NCBI RefSeq assembly: GCF_016865525.2
Contig: NZ_CP075169.1
Span: 2,790,337 to 2,854,336, forward strand
Length of the DNA: 64,000 nucleotides
Reading direction: 5' to 3'
Origin: Sodalis ligni
GTDB taxonomy: Bacteria; Pseudomonadota; Gammaproteobacteria; Enterobacterales; Enterobacteriaceae
Below the pieces are notes generated by a model. It did no database searches and was not told the origin of the DNA. It saw only the letters and a list, made by a program, of their open reading frames with translations. Made by a program: the position numbers and the translations under genes. Shown in pieces: positions 24,780 through 59,370 of the stretch. Positions within the stretch are counted from its first letter, which is position 1; each line of letters starts with the position of its first letter.

Positions 24780-26699
24780 GTGCGCCGGGCATGGCGCGTA
24801 GCGCCTTGACGGGCGCTGTCCCTGGACCGTGGTGGTCAAGGGGCGACTTGGAGGTGAAAGTCCTTTGCACACCCGGCAAGGGGAAGTGCTAGCCGAACGG
24901 CAAGGGTGCCCACCGCGAGGCGGGATCTGAAGGAAGCCGAAGGCAAAATGCTGGCCTGACGAACAGGAAGCGACTTAGGCGTGACAGCGGGGTAAGGCGG
25001 CACATATCGTCAAAGCCCGATACTTGCACGGAACGCTGTTACGTAGAGTCGACAGGTATAAGCATGAAGGTCGCGCGAATTACCCCGGGAGGTCTGTACG
25101 TCTGCCTTGGTGCTACCGGGCGTCGAGAGGCGACGGGATGAATGTACAGAAGTCAGCCGAGGCCATAGTAGCGGTGCAAAACCGGTATCGTGAAGGGCCG
25201 AACATTTACAACCGTGATTAGGACAGGTTATCTCGATGGGTATTGATGAGGCACAAGCGCAGGACACTGCGGCCCGGACAGGAGGAAGCGAACAGTATTC
25301 GCAAGGGCCTGACACGGGTGCTGAAATACCCACGGCGAAAGCTGAGCAAACGAAAGCGGAACAACCGTTGTCAATCGAGGCGGTGATAACACGCGGCAAC
25401 CTGATGCTGGCCTATCAGCGGGTTCTTGAGAATAAAGGCGCAGCAGGGGTCGATAATCTGGGCGTCGGCGAACTTAAAGACTGGCTGAAATGGCACTGGC
25501 CGACGGTGAAAGCGGCCCTGCTGGACGGAAGCTACCTGCCGCAGGCGATACGCCGGGTCGAACTGCCCAAGCCTAACGGCGGAGTCAGGGTCCTGGGTAT
25601 CCCCACGGTGGTGGACCGGCTTATCCAGCAGGCCATCCAGCAACACCTTACCCCCTATTATGAACCTGAGTTCTCCGAATCCAGCTACGGCTTCAGACCG
25701 GGCCGCAATGCGTGGCAGGCGGTGCGACAAGCACAAGCCTACGTGCAAGGCGGCCGGCGCTGGGTGGTGGACATGGATCTGGAGAAGTTCTTTGACCGGT
25801 TAACCACGACATCATGATGTCGAGGCTAAGCCGCAAAATCAAAGACGTCAGACTGCTCAGGCTCATCAGGCGTTATCTGGAAGCGGACATGGTCAGCGGC
25901 AAAGTGGTGACAAAACGGCGGGAAGGGATGCCGCAAGGCAGCCCGTTATCGCCGTTGCTCTCCAACCTGCTGCTGACCGACCTTGACCGTGAACTGGAGC
26001 GCAGGGCCACCGGTTCTGCCGTTATGCGGATGACTGTAATATCTACGTGAGCAGCCGCAAGGCGGGAGAACAGGCGATGAACTCGATAAGCCGGTATCTG
26101 GAAAAGCACCTGCGGTTGACGGTGAACCGAGATAAAAGCGCGGTGGCCAGGCCCTGGGAGCGCAAGTTCCTGGGATATAGCCTGACGTGGCACAAGCAGG
26201 CAAAACTGAAGATAGCGGCGAGCAGCGTGTCCAGGCTGAAGGAGAAAATCCGCAGCCTGACGACGGGAAACAGTTCAAAAGCGCTGAAAGCGGTTATCGA
26301 CGGGCTTGCTCCGGTGCTGCGAGGTTGGATAAGTTACTTCCGGCTGACCGAAGTCAAAGGGATACTGGAAGAACTGGACGGCTGGGTCCGCCGTAAGCTG
26401 CGTTGTCTGCTGTGGCGGCATTGGAAAAGGCCATACAAACGGGCAAGGATGCTGATGAAAGGCGGCCTGAGCGAAGAAAGGGCGTGGATATCGGCGACGA
26501 ACCAGCGCGGACCCTGGTGGAACGCGGGGGCAAGTCATATGAACCAAGCGCTGCCGAAGAAACTCTTCGATCGTGCAGGTCAGTTATCGCTGCTGGAGTT
26601 GCACAGGCAGTTCCAGTGTTGTAAATGAACCGCCGTATACGGAACCGTACGTACGGTGGTGTGAGAGGACGGCGGGAGTAATCCCGCCTCCTACTCGAT
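24780..26699 (+). mobile_element. Group II intron with intron-encoded protein remnant
   Basis: The 5' boundary GTGCG at 24780 and the 3' end CTCGAT at 26699 match group II consensus (GUGYG...AY). Joining T24779 to C26700 restores the MFS codons, so the borders are supported by the host gene. A domain V-like hairpin with ACCGCCGTA pairing TACGGTGGT lies near 26628-26662. Domain VI follows, with a perfect GGCGGGA/TCCCGCC stem and an unpaired A at 26693, six bases before the last base: the expected branch point. Domains I-III occupy roughly 24780-25235. The total length of 1,920 bases is usual for a bacterial intron of this type. No target-site duplication is expected. Confidence 0.93.
25236..26628 (+). 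pseudogene. ltrA: Group II intron reverse transcriptase/maturase, two frameshifts
   Basis: The N-terminal reverse transcriptase blocks are in one frame (MLAYQRVLENKGAAGVDNLG, VELPKPNGGVRVLGIPTVVD, SSYGFRPGRNAWQAVRQAQA, VVDMDLEKFFDR). A lost G near 25798 shifts the frame before block 4. Sequence then continues as MMSRLSRKIKDVRLLRLIRR and REGMPQGSPLSPLLSNLLL, and a lost G near 26004 shifts it again. The active-site YADD (26023-26034) and the maturase region (RKFLGYSLTWHKQ, VLRGWISYF, RGPWWNAGASHMNQALP) lie in a third frame up to the stop at 26626-26628. The stop overlaps domain V, as is common. With both shifts corrected it would be a normal protein of about 463 residues. As read, no active reverse transcriptase can be made. 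Confidence 0.88.
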
Positions 26700-43917: not shown

Positions 43918-45048
43918 ATGACCGTCAGCCTGATGATCGCCAACCGGCAAACCTGGTTCGGCACCGGCAGTATCAACCAACTGGTTCCCCTATTGCAGTC
44001 CGATGCGCGGCCCACGCTGCTGTTCAGCTGCCGATCCTTCCTCGGGGGCGCGGTTTATGCGGGCTTGGCGGATACGCTGGTGCCGCTGCTGGCCAGTACC
44101 GAGATAGTGAGTCATGAGGCGTCGCCGCAGGATATTGACCGCTGGGTGGCCCGCTGGCGCGGCAAGGTGCTGCGGGTGGTGGCTATCGGCGGCGGCAGCG
44201 TGCTGGATGCCGCCAAGGCGTTTGCCGCCCTGGCGGAGCATCCGCTGCCGGCCTTGCGCTATATGGAAAAGGTCGGGGACAGCAAGGTGAGCGGCGCGAC
44301 CCTGCCGCTTATCGCCATTCCCACCACCGCCGGTACCGGCAGCGAAGTGACGCAGAATGCCGTTATCACCGACACTCTGGTCCATAAGGTGAAGGCGTCG
44401 CTGCGCCACAACAACTTTGTGCCGCAGGCGGCGATCCTGGATCCGCAACTGCTGGCGGGGACGCCGGACCGGGTGCTGGCCTATTGCGCCATTGATGCCT
44501 TTACTCACCTTTTTGAATCCTACCTGTCCAAAACCGCCGGCAGCCTGTCTCGCGAGATGTCCCTCACCGGTATCCGCCTCTTTCTGCAGGCGTGGCCGGC
44601 ATTAAACCGCAGTGATGCCGCCCGTGAAGCCATTATGCAGGCATCCTATCTGGGGGGACTGACGCTGAGCATGGCGGGACTGGGGGTTATACACGGCATC
44701 GCCGGCGAGGTCGGCGCGCTGCGCGGCTATCATCATGGCCAGGTGTGCGGCCGGCTGCTGTTGCCGTTTCTGGATCTGCTGGCGGCAAGCGAACAGCCGC
44801 AACAGCGGGCGCTGATGGCGGAACTGGCCATGCGTCTGTTTCCCGATGAACAGGGCAGTCCGGAACGCTATTTGCGGGCATTCATTACCCGCAACGCCGT
44901 TGCCCCGTTTTGGCGGGAGGATTTGCCCCTGAGCCCCCAGGAGCTGGCGGTGAGCCTGGAAAAATCCAACAGCAAGAATTCACTGCTTGAGTATTCATCG
45001 GCGCAGCGCCGGGAAATGATAGAAGGGGCCTTTCGCATCGAGGAGTGA
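43918..45048 (+). CDS. Iron-containing alcohol dehydrogenase (phosphonoacetaldehyde-reductase-like branch)
   Basis: 376 residues. VAIGGGSVLDAAKAFA lies near residue 90, IPTTAGTGSEVTQNAVI near 137, YCAIDAFTHLFESYLS (Asp and His iron ligands) near 190, and GVIHGIAGEVGALRGYHHGQ with further His ligands near 260-275. The second ligand region differs from the 19348 gene (GALRGYHHG rather than GGKYHIPHG), so the two dehydrogenases belong to different branches. Substrate is not certain. It stands alone, and its 3' end faces the 107-bp repeat array. Confidence 0.8.
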   Translation: MTVSLMIANRQTWFGTGSINQLVPLLQSDARPTLLFSCRSFLGGAVYAGLADTLVPLLASTEIVSHEASPQDIDRWVARWRGKVLRVVAIGGGSVLDAAKAFAALAEHPLPALRYMEKVGDSKVSGATLPLIAIPTTAGTGSEVTQNAVITDTLVHKVKASLRHNNFVPQAAILDPQLLAGTPDRVLAYCAIDAFTHLFESYLSKTAGSLSREMSLTGIRLFLQAWPALNRSDAAREAIMQASYLGGLTLSMAGLGVIHGIAGEVGALRGYHHGQVCGRLLLPFLDLLAASEQPQQRALMAELAMRLFPDEQGSPERYLRAFITRNAVAPFWREDLPLSPQELAVSLEKSNSKNSLLEYSSAQRREMIEGAFRIEE

Positions 45049-45090
45049 AGTGAGGTTTCTTGCCGGCATCCCGTTCCGATCGCGTCCTTT

Positions 45091-46166
45091 AACACGTTTG
45101 TTGTACGATCGGTGATAGCGGGCCTAGCGTGCCATGAGGCGCTCGGTCGGGCGGGAAAACCACGCCCGATTCGACCTCATTGGCGCGCTCTCCCTTTAAC
45201 ACGTTTGTTGCACGATCGGTGATTGCGGGCCTAGCGTGCCATGAGGCGCTCGGTCGGGCGGACAACAACGCCCGATTCGACCTCATTGGCGCGCTCTCCC
45301 TTTAACACGTTTGTTGCACGATCGGTGATGGCGGGCCTAGCGTGCCATGAGGCGCTCGGTCGGGCGGGAAAACTACGCCCGATTCGACCTCATTGGCACG
45401 CTCTCCCTTTAACACGTTTGTTGCACGATCGGTGATGGCGGGCCTAGCGTGCCATGAGGCGCTCGGTCGGGCGGGAAAACCACGCCCGATTCGACCTCAT
45501 TGGCGCGCTCTCCCTTTAACACGTTTGTTGTACGATCGGTGATTGCGGGCCTGGCGTGCCATGAGGCGCTCGGTCGGGCGGGAAAACCACGCCCGATTCG
45601 ACCTCATTGGCGCGCTCTCCCTTTAACACGTTTGTTGTACGATCGGTGATAGCGGGCCTGGCGTGCCATGAGGCGCTCGGTCGGGCGGGAAAACCACGCC
45701 CGATTCGACCTCATTGGCGCGCTCTCCCTTTAACACGTTTGTTGCACGATCGGTGATGGCGGGCCTAGCGTGCCATGAGGCGCTCGGTCGGGCGGGAAAA
45801 CCACGCCCGATTCGACCTCATTGGCGCGCTCTCCCTTTAACACGTTTGTTGCACGATCGGTGATGGCGGGCCTAGCGTGCCATGAGGCGCTCGGTCGGGC
45901 GGGAAAACCACGCCCGATTCGACCTCATTGGCGCGCTCTCCCTTTAACACGTTTGTTGCACGATCGGTGATGGCGGGCCTAGCGTGCCATGAGGCGCTCG
46001 GTCGGGCGGGAAAACCACGCCCGATTCGACCTCATTGGCGCGCTCTCCCTTTAACACGTTTGTTGCACGATCGGTGATGGCGGGCCTGGCGTGCCATGAG
46101 GCGCTCGGTCGGGCGGGAAAACCACGCCCGATTCGACCTCATTGGCGCGCTCTCCCTTTAACACGC
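45091..46166. repeat. Tandem array of a 107-bp repeat, ten copies, each with a 64-bp imperfect palindrome
   Basis: Ten consecutive copies start (at the AACACG motif) at 45091, 45198, 45304, 45411, 45518, 45625, 45732, 45839, 45946 and 46053. The period is 107 bases (106 for the second copy). Each unit has a linker of about 43 bases (AACACGTTTGTTGCACGATC...) and an imperfect palindrome running from AGCGTGCCATGAGG to CCTCATTGGCGCGCT (45126-45189 in copy 1) with an inner CGGGCG/CGCCCG stem. Copies differ by only a few bases. The array fills the gap between the convergent ends of the iron alcohol dehydrogenase and glpK. It is not a CRISPR: the period is constant and there are no unique spacers. 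Confidence 0.97.
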
Positions 46167-46234
46167 ACTTACTTTGACATGCTCGGTTCCCCTCAGGATA
46201 AACTATGGCCCATTCATTGAATGGGCCATATGCC

Positions 46235-47773
<1,539 letters not shown>

Positions 47774-56102: not shown

Positions 56103-56999
56103 ATGAGCAAAAGTTATATCGCTATTGATTGGGGATCAACGAATTTACGCGCCTGGCTCTATCTTGACGGCGTACTGGCGGATACCCGGCAGTCGGAAGC
56201 CGGCGTGACCAGGCTGAACGGCCGTACGCCGCAGCAGGTATTTCAAGAGGTGACGGCGCCGTGGCGCCGGCACGGGGTGCCGGTGATCATGGCCGGTATG
56301 GTAGGCAGCAACGCCGGCTGGATTTCGGTACCTTATTTACCCTGTCCCACGGACCTCGCCTCACTGGCGGGCCGCCTCACCCGCGTTGAACAGGCGGCCC
56401 CGCAGTCGGCCTGGATTATTCCCGGCATCAGTATTGTCAGCGATAGCAACTGCAATGTCATGCGCGGAGAAGAGACCCAACTGCTGGGGGCCTACCGCAC
56501 CCAGCCTTCGTCCCTGTACCTGATGCCCGGCACCCACTCCAAATGGGTACGCCTGGAAAACGGCGTTATCAACGATTTTCGCACAGTGATGACCGGCGAA
56601 TTGCACCACCTTCTCATCAAGCAGTCGCTCATCGGCGTCGGGTTATCTGAACAGCAGCCGAATCCGGCGGTTTTCCGGCAGGGGATGGAGCAGGGCTTTA
56701 ACCAAAGCAATATCCTGCGCTGCCTGTTTGAAATCCGCGCCGCCCACGTGCTGGGCCAACTGGATAAAAGCGCGGTGAGCGAATGGCTCTCCGGACTGCT
56801 CATCGGCAATGAAGTGGCGCAAATGCGGCGGGACTGGGGTATCGCCAAAGGCGAAACGGTGACGGTTATCGGCAATCCGCAGCTTGCCGCCCGCTATCAG
56901 CAGGCATTGGAGTATGCCGATCTTCATCACAGGTTGCTGGACGGCGACGAGACCTTTCAAGCTGGAATAAGGAGCATATTAAATGAGCTGGACCAATAG
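56103..56999 (+). CDS. dgoK: 2-dehydro-3-deoxygalactonokinase
   Basis: 298 residues. The N-terminal phosphate loop YIAIDWGSTNLRAWLYLDG is followed by IMAGMVGSNAGWISVPYLPC near residue 65, LMPGTHSKWVRLENGVINDF near 140 and a MTGELHHLLIKQSLIGVG segment. This is the DgoK family, which phosphorylates 2-keto-3-deoxygalactonate with ATP. It starts 18 bases after dgoR and overlaps dgoA by 17 bases. Confidence 0.93.
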   Translation: MSKSYIAIDWGSTNLRAWLYLDGVLADTRQSEAGVTRLNGRTPQQVFQEVTAPWRRHGVPVIMAGMVGSNAGWISVPYLPCPTDLASLAGRLTRVEQAAPQSAWIIPGISIVSDSNCNVMRGEETQLLGAYRTQPSSLYLMPGTHSKWVRLENGVINDFRTVMTGELHHLLIKQSLIGVGLSEQQPNPAVFRQGMEQGFNQSNILRCLFEIRAAHVLGQLDKSAVSEWLSGLLIGNEVAQMRRDWGIAKGETVTVIGNPQLAARYQQALEYADLHHRLLDGDETFQAGIRSILNELDQ

Positions 57000-57606
57000 A
57001 TTACCCTTGATTGCCATTTTGCGCGGCATCACTCCGGAGGAAGTGCTGGAGCACGTTGAGGTATTGCTGGATGCGGGTTTTGAGGCGGTGGAAATCCCGC
57101 TGAATTCCCCGGACTGGCAAGAAAGCATAGGCAAGACGGTAAAAGCCTACGGCCAGCGGGCATTAATCGGCGCCGGCACGGTGCTTAAACCGGGGCAGGT
57201 GGATATCCTGGCGGCATTGGGCTGCAAGCTGCTGGTGACGCCTAATATCAATGCTGAAATTATTCACCGGGCCGTAGGCTACGGCATGGAAGTCTGCCCC
57301 GGCTGCGCCACCGCCACGGAGGCGTTCACCGCGCTGGACGCAGGCGCCCAGGCGTTGAAAATATTCCCCTCGGTAGCGTTCGGGCCGGATTATATCAAGG
57401 CCCTCAAGGCGGTATTGCCTCCGGATGTTCCGGTATTCGCCGTAGGCGGCGTATCGCCGGAAAATCTCCATCTCTATCTCAAGGCCGGCTGCATCGGCGC
57501 CGGTTTGGGCAGCGATTTGTACCGCGCCGGCCAGCCGGTCAGCCGAACCGCCCAGCAGGCAAAAGCCTTTGTCCGCGCCTATAAAGAGGCGCTGGCGCAA
57601 CACTAA
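56983..57606 (+). CDS. dgoA: 2-dehydro-3-deoxy-6-phosphogalactonate aldolase
   Basis: 207 residues, KDPG/KDPGal aldolase TIM barrel. Catalytic Glu is in FEAVEIPLNSP near residue 37. LIGAGTVLKPGQVDILAALG lies near 62, and the Schiff-base Lys is in ALKIFPSVAFGPDYIKALKA near 126. The phosphate loop is FAVGGVSPENL near 155. It cleaves the phosphorylated ketodeoxy acid to pyruvate and glyceraldehyde-3-phosphate. The repeat array begins within a few bases of its stop codon. Confidence 0.94.
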   Translation: MSWTNRLPLIAILRGITPEEVLEHVEVLLDAGFEAVEIPLNSPDWQESIGKTVKAYGQRALIGAGTVLKPGQVDILAALGCKLLVTPNINAEIIHRAVGYGMEVCPGCATATEAFTALDAGAQALKIFPSVAFGPDYIKALKAVLPPDVPVFAVGGVSPENLHLYLKAGCIGAGLGSDLYRAGQPVSRTAQQAKAFVRAYKEALAQH

Positions 57607-57610
57607 CGGG

Positions 57611-58044
57611 CAACGAACGTGTTAAAGGGAGAGCGCGCCAATGAGGTCGAATCGGGCGTGGTTTTCCCGCCCGACCGAGCGCCTCATGGCACGCTAGGCC
57701 CGCAATCACCGATCGTGCAACAAACGTGTTAAAGGGAGAGCGCGCCAATGAGGTCGAATCGGGCGTGGTTTTCCCGCCCGACCGAGCGCCTCATGGCACG
57801 CTAGGCCCGCAATCACCGATCGTGCAACAAACGTGTTAAAGGGAGAGCGCGCCAATGAGGTCGAATCGGGCGTGGTTTTCCCGCCCGACCGAGCGCCTCA
57901 TGGCACGCTAGGCCCGCAATCACCGATCGTGCAACAAACGTGTTAAAGGGAGAGCGCGCCAATGAGGTCGAATCGGGCGTGGTTTTCCCGCCCGACCGAG
58001 CGCCTCATGGCACGCTAGGCCCGCCATCACCGGACGTGCAACGA
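57611..58044. repeat. Second 107-bp repeat array, four copies in inverted orientation, between dgoA and dgoD
   Basis: Four copies of the same unit found at 45091-46166, here as its reverse complement. ACGTGTTAAAG motifs lie at 57617, 57724, 57831 and 57938 with an exact 107-base period. The last copy decays near 58040. The 64-bp palindrome is intact in each copy. It fills most of the 615-base gap between dgoA and dgoD; the rest holds the DgoR-type operator at 58130 and the dgoD promoter. Relative to dgoA the unit has the same orientation as array 1 has relative to glpK. Confidence 0.97.
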
Positions 58045-58162: not shown

Positions 58163-58221
58163 CCAAAACATAATAGTGCGACAGCAAACGCATGCCGTTA
58201 TTGACCAAGAAGGACGTGAAA

Positions 58222-59370
58222 ATGAAAGTGACAAAGCTGACCACCTACCGTCTACCGCCGCGCTGGATGTTTCTCAAAGTGGAAACCGACGAAGGGATCA
58301 CCGGCTGGGGCGAGCCGGTGATCGAAGGCCGCGCGCGCACGGTGGAAGCAGCGGTACATGAACTTTCCGAATACGTAATCGGCCAGGATCCCGCGCGCAT
58401 CAATGATATCTGGTCAACCCTCTATCGCGGCGGTTTTTATCGTGGCGGCCCAATCCTGATGAGCGCCATCGCCGGTATCGATCAGGCGCTGTGGGATATC
58501 AAAGGCAAAGCGCTGGGGGTACCGGTGTACCAACTGCCGGGCGGGCTGGGGCGGGATAAGATCAAAGCATACAGCTGGGTAGGGGGAGACCGCCCCGCCG
58601 ATGTTATCGCCGGCATGAAAAAACTCACCGAGATCGGCTTTGATACCTTTAAGCTCAACGGCTGCGAAGAGATGGGCCTCATCGATAATTCACGCAAAAT
58701 CGACGCCGCGGTAGCGGTGGCGGCCCAGGTGCGTGAAGCCATGGGCAACGCCATCGAGTTCGGGCTGGATTTCCACGGCCGGGTAAATGCGCCCATGGCA
58801 AAGCTGCTGATTAAGGAGCTGGAACCCTATCGTCCGCTGTTTATCGAAGAACCGGTACTGGCGGAGCAGGCGGAATACTACCCGCGCCTGGCGGCGCAAA
58901 CCGCCATCCCCATCGCCGCCGGCGAACGCATGTTCTCCCGTTACGAATTCAAACGCGTTCTGGCCAACGGCGGCCTGGCCATTGCCCAGCCGGATCTCTC
59001 CCACGCCGGCGGCATTACCGAATGCCTGAAAATCGCCTCCATGGCAGAAGCCTATGACGTAGCTCTGGCGCCACACTGCCCGCTGGGTCCCATTGCGCTG
59101 GCGTCCTGCCTGCACGTTGACTTTGTTTCCTATAACGCGGTATTGCAGGAACAAAGCATGGGCATTCATTATAACCAGGGGGCAGAGCTGCTGGATTACG
59201 TTATTAACAAAGACGATTTTAAAATGACGGACGGTTATTTTTATCCGTTAACCAAACCCGGACTGGGTGTGGAAATCAATGAAGAACTCGTTATTGAGCG
59301 CAGCAAAAATGCCGGCGACTGGCGTAACCCGGTATGGCGCTATCCTGACGGCGCGGTGGCGGAATGGTAA
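58222..59370 (+). CDS. dgoD: D-galactonate dehydratase
   Basis: 382 residues, the same length as E. coli DgoD. Enolase superfamily: N-terminal capping domain [20 protein letters not shown]. In the barrel the metal ligands are Asp in LDFHGRV near 183, Glu in [10 protein letters not shown] near 209 and Glu in [12 protein letters not shown] near 235. His is in FHGRV and in [15 protein letters not shown] near 285. It dehydrates D-galactonate to 2-keto-3-deoxygalactonate. The start at 58222 follows AAGGACGTGAAA; an in-frame ATG 30 bases upstream has weaker support. Confidence 0.95.

Follow-up and report, generated by a model that had tools for sequence, protein, structure and literature searches.

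The tandem array at 45091-46166 of the window (the whole 64,000-nucleotide stretch of Sodalis ligni DNA that was analysed), here called array 1, is best explained, with a probability of roughly 0.6, as one site of a dispersed, site-stable family of palindromic intergenic repeats in Sodalis that is constrained in structure and expands by way of direct-repeat spacers. The sites of this family lie at gene ends, keep a paired hairpin with fixed asymmetries and are stable in position and orientation while differing in copy number; the arrays are homogenised, and sequence has been exchanged in at least one pair of sites. The family is a new form of a known sort of bacterial repeat, consisting of tandem hairpins at gene ends with a putative role for the host. 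With copies in the hundreds, sites that are conserved, a copy number that varies and strong covariation, it offers a rich natural data set for two questions, namely how a palindromic repeat can persist when no transposase is recognisable, and whether transcripts are affected by hairpin arrays at the ends of genes.

Arrays in the window

The features of the window on which the following sections draw are listed by position and strand.

43918..45048, + strand: iron-containing alcohol dehydrogenase gene (ORF, PF00465), upstream of array 1, with its 3′ end facing the array
45091..46166, + strand: array 1, tandem; ten 107-bp units (one of 106), each a spacer plus a 64-bp hairpin, closed by a further partial spacer
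45126..45189, + strand: first hairpin of array 1, with AGCGTGCCATGAGG / CCTCATTGGCGCGCT as its outer and TCGGGCG / CGCCCGA as its inner stem; the other nine follow at the same spacing
45190..45232, + strand: one inter-hairpin spacer of array 1, 43 bp, CTCCCTTTAACACG to GCGGGCCT; a direct repeat that flanks every hairpin
46204..46230, − strand: terminator-like hairpin between the glpK-like gene and array 1 (one found against 1.8 expected in shuffles, weak alone)
46235..47770, − strand: FGGY carbohydrate kinase gene, glpK by resemblance (ORF, PF00370 and PF02782), convergent and downstream, with its 3′ end facing array 1
56983..57606, + strand: KDPG/KHG aldolase gene (PF01081), upstream of array 2
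57610..58042, − strand: array 2, tandem; four units with hairpins at 57632-57695, 57739-57802, 57846-57909 and 57953-58016
58192..59370, + strand: enolase-superfamily gene of the mandelate racemase type (PF02746, PF13378), downstream of array 2 and co-directional with the aldolase gene

TRF places array 1 at 45086-46165 with a period of 107, 10.1 copies, 97% matches and a score of 2055. The units start at 45091, 45198, 45304, 45411 and so on to 46053, in steps of 107 and once of 106, and the ten hairpins, from 45126-45189 to 46088-46151, are 64 bp each apart from that of copy 2, which has 63 bp. These coordinates bear out an earlier reading of the sequence alone, which had described ten copies of 107 bp, one of them a base shorter, built around an imperfect palindrome of 64 bp. 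The order is spacer, hairpin, spacer, hairpin and so forth, ending in a spacer; in the loci that were read, single copies likewise tend to lie between two direct-repeat spacers, often diverged. Folded as RNA, a stretch of 120 nt around one unit reaches −57.9 kcal/mol (z −3.99), a value as low being given by none of 200 shuffles; as DNA, the same unit gives z −3.27 on the + strand (1 of 200 shuffles as low) and z −3.31 on the − strand (0 of 200). Array 2, to which the sequence-only account of array 1 did not refer, is nearly identical to array 1, with a core consensus agreement of 0.989.

The sequence-only reading had the array follow glpK. The 3′ end of a glpK-like gene does face array 1, but the array lies between two convergent genes. 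A search of 45000-46260 for intrinsic terminators (a GC stem and then a T-run) returned the candidate at 46204-46230 only, outside the repeats; simple scans found no sigma-70 site or intrinsic terminator inside the repeats, and a T-run behind the hairpin stem is absent on either strand. A second glpK-like copy in the genome (G000:C1:6179481-6181013) encodes a protein 98% identical to that of the window copy at 46235-47770, and in the stretches that were read an array is found behind the window copy only. Elsewhere in the window, group II intron domains are present at 24909-26699, with three Rfam matches above the gathering score.

Placement and conservation of the sites

The S. ligni genome (G000) is one contig of 6,443,694 bases. 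A search with the repeat unit gave at least 153 matches in it (40 of 116 candidates scored), and covariance model R1 gave at least 150. Copies were counted in three round-number blocks of 400 kb (1.2 Mb), which were not chosen by repeat content; one of the blocks contains the window, and the list of unit matches was in view when they were chosen. R1 made 101 matches in these blocks (E<=0.01), falling into 24 arrays, 11 of them single and the others with 2 to 14 copies, and a sequence-only profile made 96 matches in 23 arrays over the same 1.2 Mb. By extrapolation, the whole genome would hold about 540 copies at about 130 sites.

Thirteen of the 24 arrays lie between convergent genes, 11 in co-directional gaps and none in a divergent gap, against 86 convergent, 306 co-directional and 125 divergent gaps in a background of 517 gaps of at least 60 bp. 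Both the lack of divergent gaps (p 0.0013, by gap number) and the convergent excess (p 3e-5) speak to the question, raised from the sequence alone, of whether copies stand at gene 3′ ends: the placement is non-random. Genes were called with a simple codon model under which 73-77% of bases are coding, so that small genes are missed, and at two of the 24 arrays another ORF, of weak score, overlaps or borders the array. A wider set of 68 sites from this genome, some of them picked by similarity, has 42 convergent, 24 co-directional and 1 divergent among the 67 classified. In co-directional gaps 5 of 11 arrays (1.2-Mb set) and 14 of 24 (wider set) have the same sense as the gene. Of 36 flanked 3′ ends, 25 have the first model match starting 31-72 nt beyond the stop codon, a distance of which part is the spacer itself. 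Intrinsic terminators occur at three of the 36 flanked 3′ ends against 2.1 expected, which says little on whether arrays replace terminators.

All matches are on one strand and head-to-tail in 39 of 39 S. ligni loci. In two loci (L032, about 2496-2552, and L001, about 2049-2090) there are units from which the hairpin is gone and the spacer is left, which suggests deletion of the hairpin by slippage. The gene between two nearby arrays (L158) encodes MdoG and no transposase.

A 39-nt core pattern, searched for in a public genome collection from which the S. ligni genome was possibly left out, was found only in Sodalis sp. dw_96, in 28 stretches, and most long flank matches to this relative have about 84-93% identity. 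Strain dw96 is given as 87-88% ANI from S. ligni strains in PMC9241852 and PMC8226273. Genome G002 was taken as dw96, and synteny blocks that were not repeat-picked (A and C of S. ligni, contigs C1 and C23 of G002) were compared. Both flanks were present in G002 for 11 of 17 S. ligni arrays, and 10 of these 11 sites are occupied there; in the other direction, both flanks were present in S. ligni for 10 of 14 arrays, and all 10 sites are occupied. Orientation is the same at all comparable sites, and copy number is equal in 2 of 10. The single empty site in G002 is that of 5544938, and with pattern-picked loci added 15 of 16 sites are occupied. The adh-glpK site has ten copies in S. ligni and one in the relative, whose copy numbers may be low, since it was assembled from short reads alone (PMC8226273). 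By eye, the frame of the alcohol dehydrogenase in the dw96-like relative appears to extend into the repeat and to stop inside the hairpin (L099, 1260-1330).

Core identity is 0.968 within arrays and 0.857 between them. In nine unselected orthologous pairs with a usable consensus the cores are modestly but significantly closer, at an identity of 0.896, than those of non-orthologous pairs, at 0.857 (a value as high came up in 11 of 5000 permutations), and the orthologous counterpart is the nearest of the nine in two cases. The orthologous value is close to the divergence of the genomes, so exchange is not required at most sites. When 14 of the 15 filled pairs are taken, 11 of the 14 being pattern-picked and 2682564 left out for an unusable consensus, orthologous pairs give 0.882 versus 0.868. 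The two window arrays agree with each other at 0.989 and with their own counterparts only at 0.913 and 0.935, both sites being filled in both genomes; between the two dw96 counterparts, by eye, about nine of 93 positions differ. The window arrays resemble each other more closely than either resembles its counterpart, which shows that sequence has been exchanged between sites. The distant S. ligni sites 1309730 and 1477635 have identical cores, and others are nearly identical; exchange was seen for some sites only. The hairpin type CTGTGGGG/CCCCATCAG is found in 22 of 67 S. ligni arrays versus 1 of 35 in dw96, and in 6 of 22 versus 1 of 13 in the unselected sample (p 0.22). We do not claim a spread of this type in S. 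ligni, for most of the dw96 loci were pattern-picked and the pattern excludes it.

Base pairing, orientation and rival explanations

Alignment A1 contains one hairpin from each of 39 S. ligni arrays, rows L019 and L021 being taken from a full-length copy in the same array. Under a 25-pair structure, 94.0% of its 974 cells are paired, and with partners slid by 1-3 columns pairing is 31-46%. Eleven of the 25 pairs have changed on both sides; 65 cells do so, where shuffles give 21.6 and none of 500 reaches 65 (here and below, relatedness is still present in the shuffles, so that such fractions are not probabilities). The number of pair types is not raised, at 23 versus 22.0 in shuffles (154 of 500). 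Three pairs show the double changes clearly: columns 17/79 read G-C in 17 rows, C-G in 15 and otherwise in 7; columns 27/67 are G-C in 21, A-U in 9, U-A in 7 and other in 2; columns 37/59 are G-C in 24, U-A in 13 and other in 2. Pair 35/62 is unpaired in 18 of the 39 rows. The cross-genus alignment A2, with 28 rows (25 distinct) hand-chosen from the available loci, has 88.8% of cells paired and 14 of 26 pairs changed on both sides; 62 cells are so changed, where shuffles give 20.3 and none of 500 reaches 62. Unpaired features are conserved in both alignments as read, namely an internal loop of GCGCTC against TTCGA or TACGA, plus a bulge.

Pairs thus covary strongly both within the genome and across genera, from which we conclude that pairing matters. 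The sequence-only reading had proposed selection on pairing, and the proposal gains support from these counts; the particular hint on which it drew is poor evidence. Copy 3 of array 1 does carry the variant right arm that it described, GGCACGCT, and this change from a wobble to a T:A pair had been read as a sign of selection. The columns concerned (20/75 of the model) are usually mismatched, reading C-A in 29, T-G in 23, T-A in 10, C-G in 4 and C-C in 1 of 67 S. ligni array consensuses, with Watson-Crick pairs rarer than independence predicts (p 3e-6, the rows not being independent by descent). The T-A of copy 3 is therefore an ordinary minority state. Among 1404 cells there are 34 G.T and 47 A.C mismatches; the two are tolerated alike, and there is no sign of one transcribed strand being favoured.

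Change within arrays was followed in 36 S. ligni arrays with at least three usable copies (195 units), where the stem has 123 deviations over 42 sites, the loop 93 over 23 and the spacer 105 over 28. Of 94 one-sided changes at paired positions, 60 break the pair and 34 keep it (36% versus 25.5% expected, p 0.024), and 16 changes convert a mismatch into a pair. With 60 of 94 breaking the pair, selection on single copies is weak. Weak constraint on the single copy together with a mostly paired array consensus would fit a filter at propagation better than a need for each copy to fold. Template-switch correction of quasi-palindromes could keep pairing in part, instead of selection; the kept mismatches argue against it.

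Between species, the nine unselected orthologous pairs provide 225 pair positions, of which 187 are unchanged and paired and 3 unchanged and unpaired. Both sides have changed with pairing kept at 9, and with a non-standard pair in one species at 4; one side has changed at the others, 4 of them paired in both species and 18 mismatched in one of the two. The corresponding change counts in the 14-pair set are 21, 7, 9 and 19. At the adh-glpK site, columns 17/78 are C-G in the relative and G-C in S. ligni. We count it against our own explanation that one-sided changes leaving a mismatch (18) outnumber two-sided paired changes (9) in these unselected pairs, and likewise that the search for a mobilising protein identified none.

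In S. ligni dnaA lies at 395, and a dif-like site, with one mismatch to the dif sequence, at 3,153,651. On this basis 48 of 69 sites point with the replication fork (p 0.0016 versus one half), and 18 of 24 in the 1.2-Mb blocks (p 0.023). Predicted genes point the same way in 532 of 890 cases, and against this background the bias is not significant (p 0.11 for 48/69 and 0.15 for 18/24). Gene directions cancel in convergent gaps, which taken alone give 29 of 42 with the fork (p 0.02). The bias is modest and to be taken as tentative. The genome has sixteen further Bac_DnaA matches, in dispersed frames of 109-279 aa, several with the same score, which we take to be probably transposon helper proteins.

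Among the rival explanations, recruitment by the host as a two-way 3′-end element, in which the hairpins stop or protect transcripts from either side and insulate convergent genes, with copy number tuning the effect, is possible and deserves some weight, although we consider it unlikely. It would account for the 42 of 67 sites between convergent genes, for the distance from the stop codon shared by 25 of the 36 flanked 3′ ends (spacer included), for the near equality of sense and antisense in co-directional gaps (5/11 and 14/24), which a symmetric hairpin allows, and for the keeping of sites between species. It sits poorly with the lack of a T-run behind the stem and of a terminator-like site within the repeats, with the volatile copy number and with the many stem changes that are tolerated; moreover, insertion that avoids genes and promoters would also give a location at 3′ ends. 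A binding array at the DNA level for a protein of the nucleoid or of topology (gyrase or IHF), in the manner of a BIME, seems improbable to us. Supercoils gather between convergent genes, where the arrays are placed, and the equal tolerance of G.T (34) and A.C (47) mismatches, with no preference for a transcribed strand, would suit a role as DNA; no gyrase or IHF site came up in scans made for other signals.

Active transposition as single-stranded DNA, in the style of REP/RAYT or IS200/IS605, with a tyrosine transposase that cuts and pastes the hairpin during lagging-strand synthesis, would explain the kept mismatch and internal loop, E. coli TnpAREP requiring the stem mismatches of REP (PMC8266576), and the lean of orientation with the fork (48/69 sites, 29/42 in convergent gaps). 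Y1_Tnp genes (PF01797) occur in two of 11 genomes examined, G027, with a strong match and 22 hairpin matches, and G029, both hairpin-bearing. The domain is absent from S. ligni and from the other five genomes of the genus, the transposase loci of G027 and G029 have no hairpin, the hairpin has no GTAG/CGTC tag, the sites are nearly fixed between species and the fork bias over all sites is not significant against the genes (p 0.11), so we rate this reading as quite improbable. An assembly artefact, or a neutral local satellite free of structural constraint, we consider extremely improbable: the identity of tandem copies is what mis-assembly or slippage yields, but the family recurs on independent contigs of Sodalis sp. 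dw_96, at the same sites and in the same orientation, and covariation lies far beyond shuffles, which together refute it as a full explanation.

For the structured, site-stable family that we prefer, a history may be sketched from these observations. A mobile hairpin element, akin to the one with YPAL-like ends described below, would have seeded the sites while the two species were still one. The direct-repeat spacers of about 43 bp would then allow replication slippage or unequal recombination, by which sites expand and shrink (1 to 14 copies in the sample). The folded hairpin would be under selection, as single-stranded DNA or as RNA from either strand, being recognised by a putative factor, and the likeliest effect on the host would be a passive one, with the 3′ ends of neighbouring transcripts being protected or shaped. 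A more specific version is a structured satellite of about 130 fixed gene-end sites, whose pairing-selected hairpin is amplified and partly rewritten by way of a putative fork-linked hairpin factor, and whose copy number adjusts neighbouring 3′ ends; in this full form we find it doubtful.

Relation to known repeats

The family resembles REP and BIME sequences in its high copy number, intergenic location and kept stem mismatches. REPs prefer convergent and unidirectional gaps and are reiterated in tandem in some families (PMC3733652), and the Sodalis arrays too stand at gene 3′ ends in gaps of these kinds. They differ in that GTAG/CGTC is found at the hairpin foot in 0 of 39 rows (the 5′ foot reads GGGCCT in 31 and GGGCTT in 6, the 3′ foot TCTCCC in 35 of 39), and from BIMEs, which are inverse pairs of REPs, in having all matches on one strand in 39 of 39 loci. 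The Sodalis family thus shares some ways of working with REP but falls outside that group. With CRISPR it shares regular direct repeats; CRISPR spacers are non-repetitive and of even size, whereas here the whole 107-bp unit repeats, spacers included, and the sequence-only reading was right to set the array apart from CRISPR, variable spacers being absent. Rfam gave no match at the gathering threshold over either window array, none at E<=1 in the array 1 locus, and over six related loci one match far below the gathering score. Integron attC sites, type III toxin-antitoxin repeats and TIGR arrays were also weighed and tentatively set aside.

A description of the family was not found in the literature on Sodalis repeats, S. 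ligni, YPAL and REP arrays that could be covered, which excluded most subscription journals and the paper defining YPAL. A term search in the main text of PMC9241852 and PMC8226273 gave no palindromic or transposed repeat, and one in the RepRanger paper (PMC12306157) gave no passage on Sodalis, Serratia, Yersinia, convergent or tandem.

Relatives of the hairpin were found in other genera. R1, run across 60 genomes, matches eight, namely five of the six in the genus (S. ligni included) and three in other genera. Model R2 matches six of 40 genomes of the same family (one per genus, up to 118 candidates scored in each), S. ligni among them; matches outside Sodalis number 18 in G008, 7 in G021, 22 in G027, 1 in G029 and 3 in G323, and among the matches listed there the hairpins are single and far apart. 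Across 295 genomes of the order R2 matches at least three, with at most 16 candidates scored per genome, so that absence in this search means little. The array query had no match among plasmids and phages; the other-genus element is present in two plasmid records, with Yersinia frederiksenii and Serratia proteamaculans as hosts, and its Yersinia copy had no match among phages.

A known element close to these single copies is YPAL, the Yersinia palindromic sequence or RU-2, of 167-168 bp, with a 130-bp variant listed as YPAL* (PMC2267715) and an RU-2 sequence printed in PMC2759123. It is likewise an intergenic hairpin element, and the other-genus hairpin lies between YPAL-like ends: by eye, YPAL/RU-2-like ends are present in elements L081, L088 and L095 of G021 and L075 of G027, those of L081 reading TGAGGTTGATGACAAAG...TTTGTCAGCGGTCTGA as compared with TGAGGTTATTGACAAAGT...TTTGTCAGCAGTCTGA in the reverse complement of printed RU-2. 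YPAL duplicates targets of 3-26 bp at dyad sequences, which are its described targets (PMC2229807). Among the four G021 copies, a host dyad sequence stands on both sides of L081, L088 and L095 and not of L073, by eye. The Sodalis units differ in that they lack the ends conserved in YPAL, which the printed RU-2 copy gives as TCAGACTGCTGACAAA...ACTTTGTCAATAACCTCA: of 37 arrays, none is flanked on each side by a TGACAAA-type motif at 200 bp or less. They also have a spacer of their own, form tandem arrays and carry a hairpin that, by eye, differs from that of the printed Y. pestis RU-2 copy. An RU-2 search showed that YPAL-like copies in Sodalis are a separate set, with 17 in 1.2 Mb of S. ligni and 11 in 0.8 Mb of G002; one lies within 300 bp of 3 of 37 arrays, and some adjoin arrays (L030 and L035 also).

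The Sodalis-type hairpin is homologous to the one inside the single other-genus elements with YPAL-like ends. This suggests that YPAL-type elements are modular, with inserting ends and a hairpin able to persist without them. The earlier statement that no named element of this design is known holds only with a qualification, the hairpin having a homologue in single elements with YPAL-like ends; it may even have been published as a variant of YPAL, in the 2006 paper by De Gregorio et al. that defined YPAL and its variants.

The earlier reading also had the repeat larger than REP or ERIC units. This is true of the 64-bp hairpin against the REP palindrome of 20-50 nt (PMC8266576) and untrue of the 107-bp unit against ERIC, at 127 bp (PMC2759123). 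ERIC (RU-1) is, like the Sodalis repeat, an intergenic palindrome of Enterobacterales, but the Sodalis unit is unlike printed RU-1, judged by eye. We know of no tandem arrays of ERIC. In the relative's genome, the sequence past the neighbour of the glpK-like gene (L105) resembles printed ERIC/RU-1 by eye.
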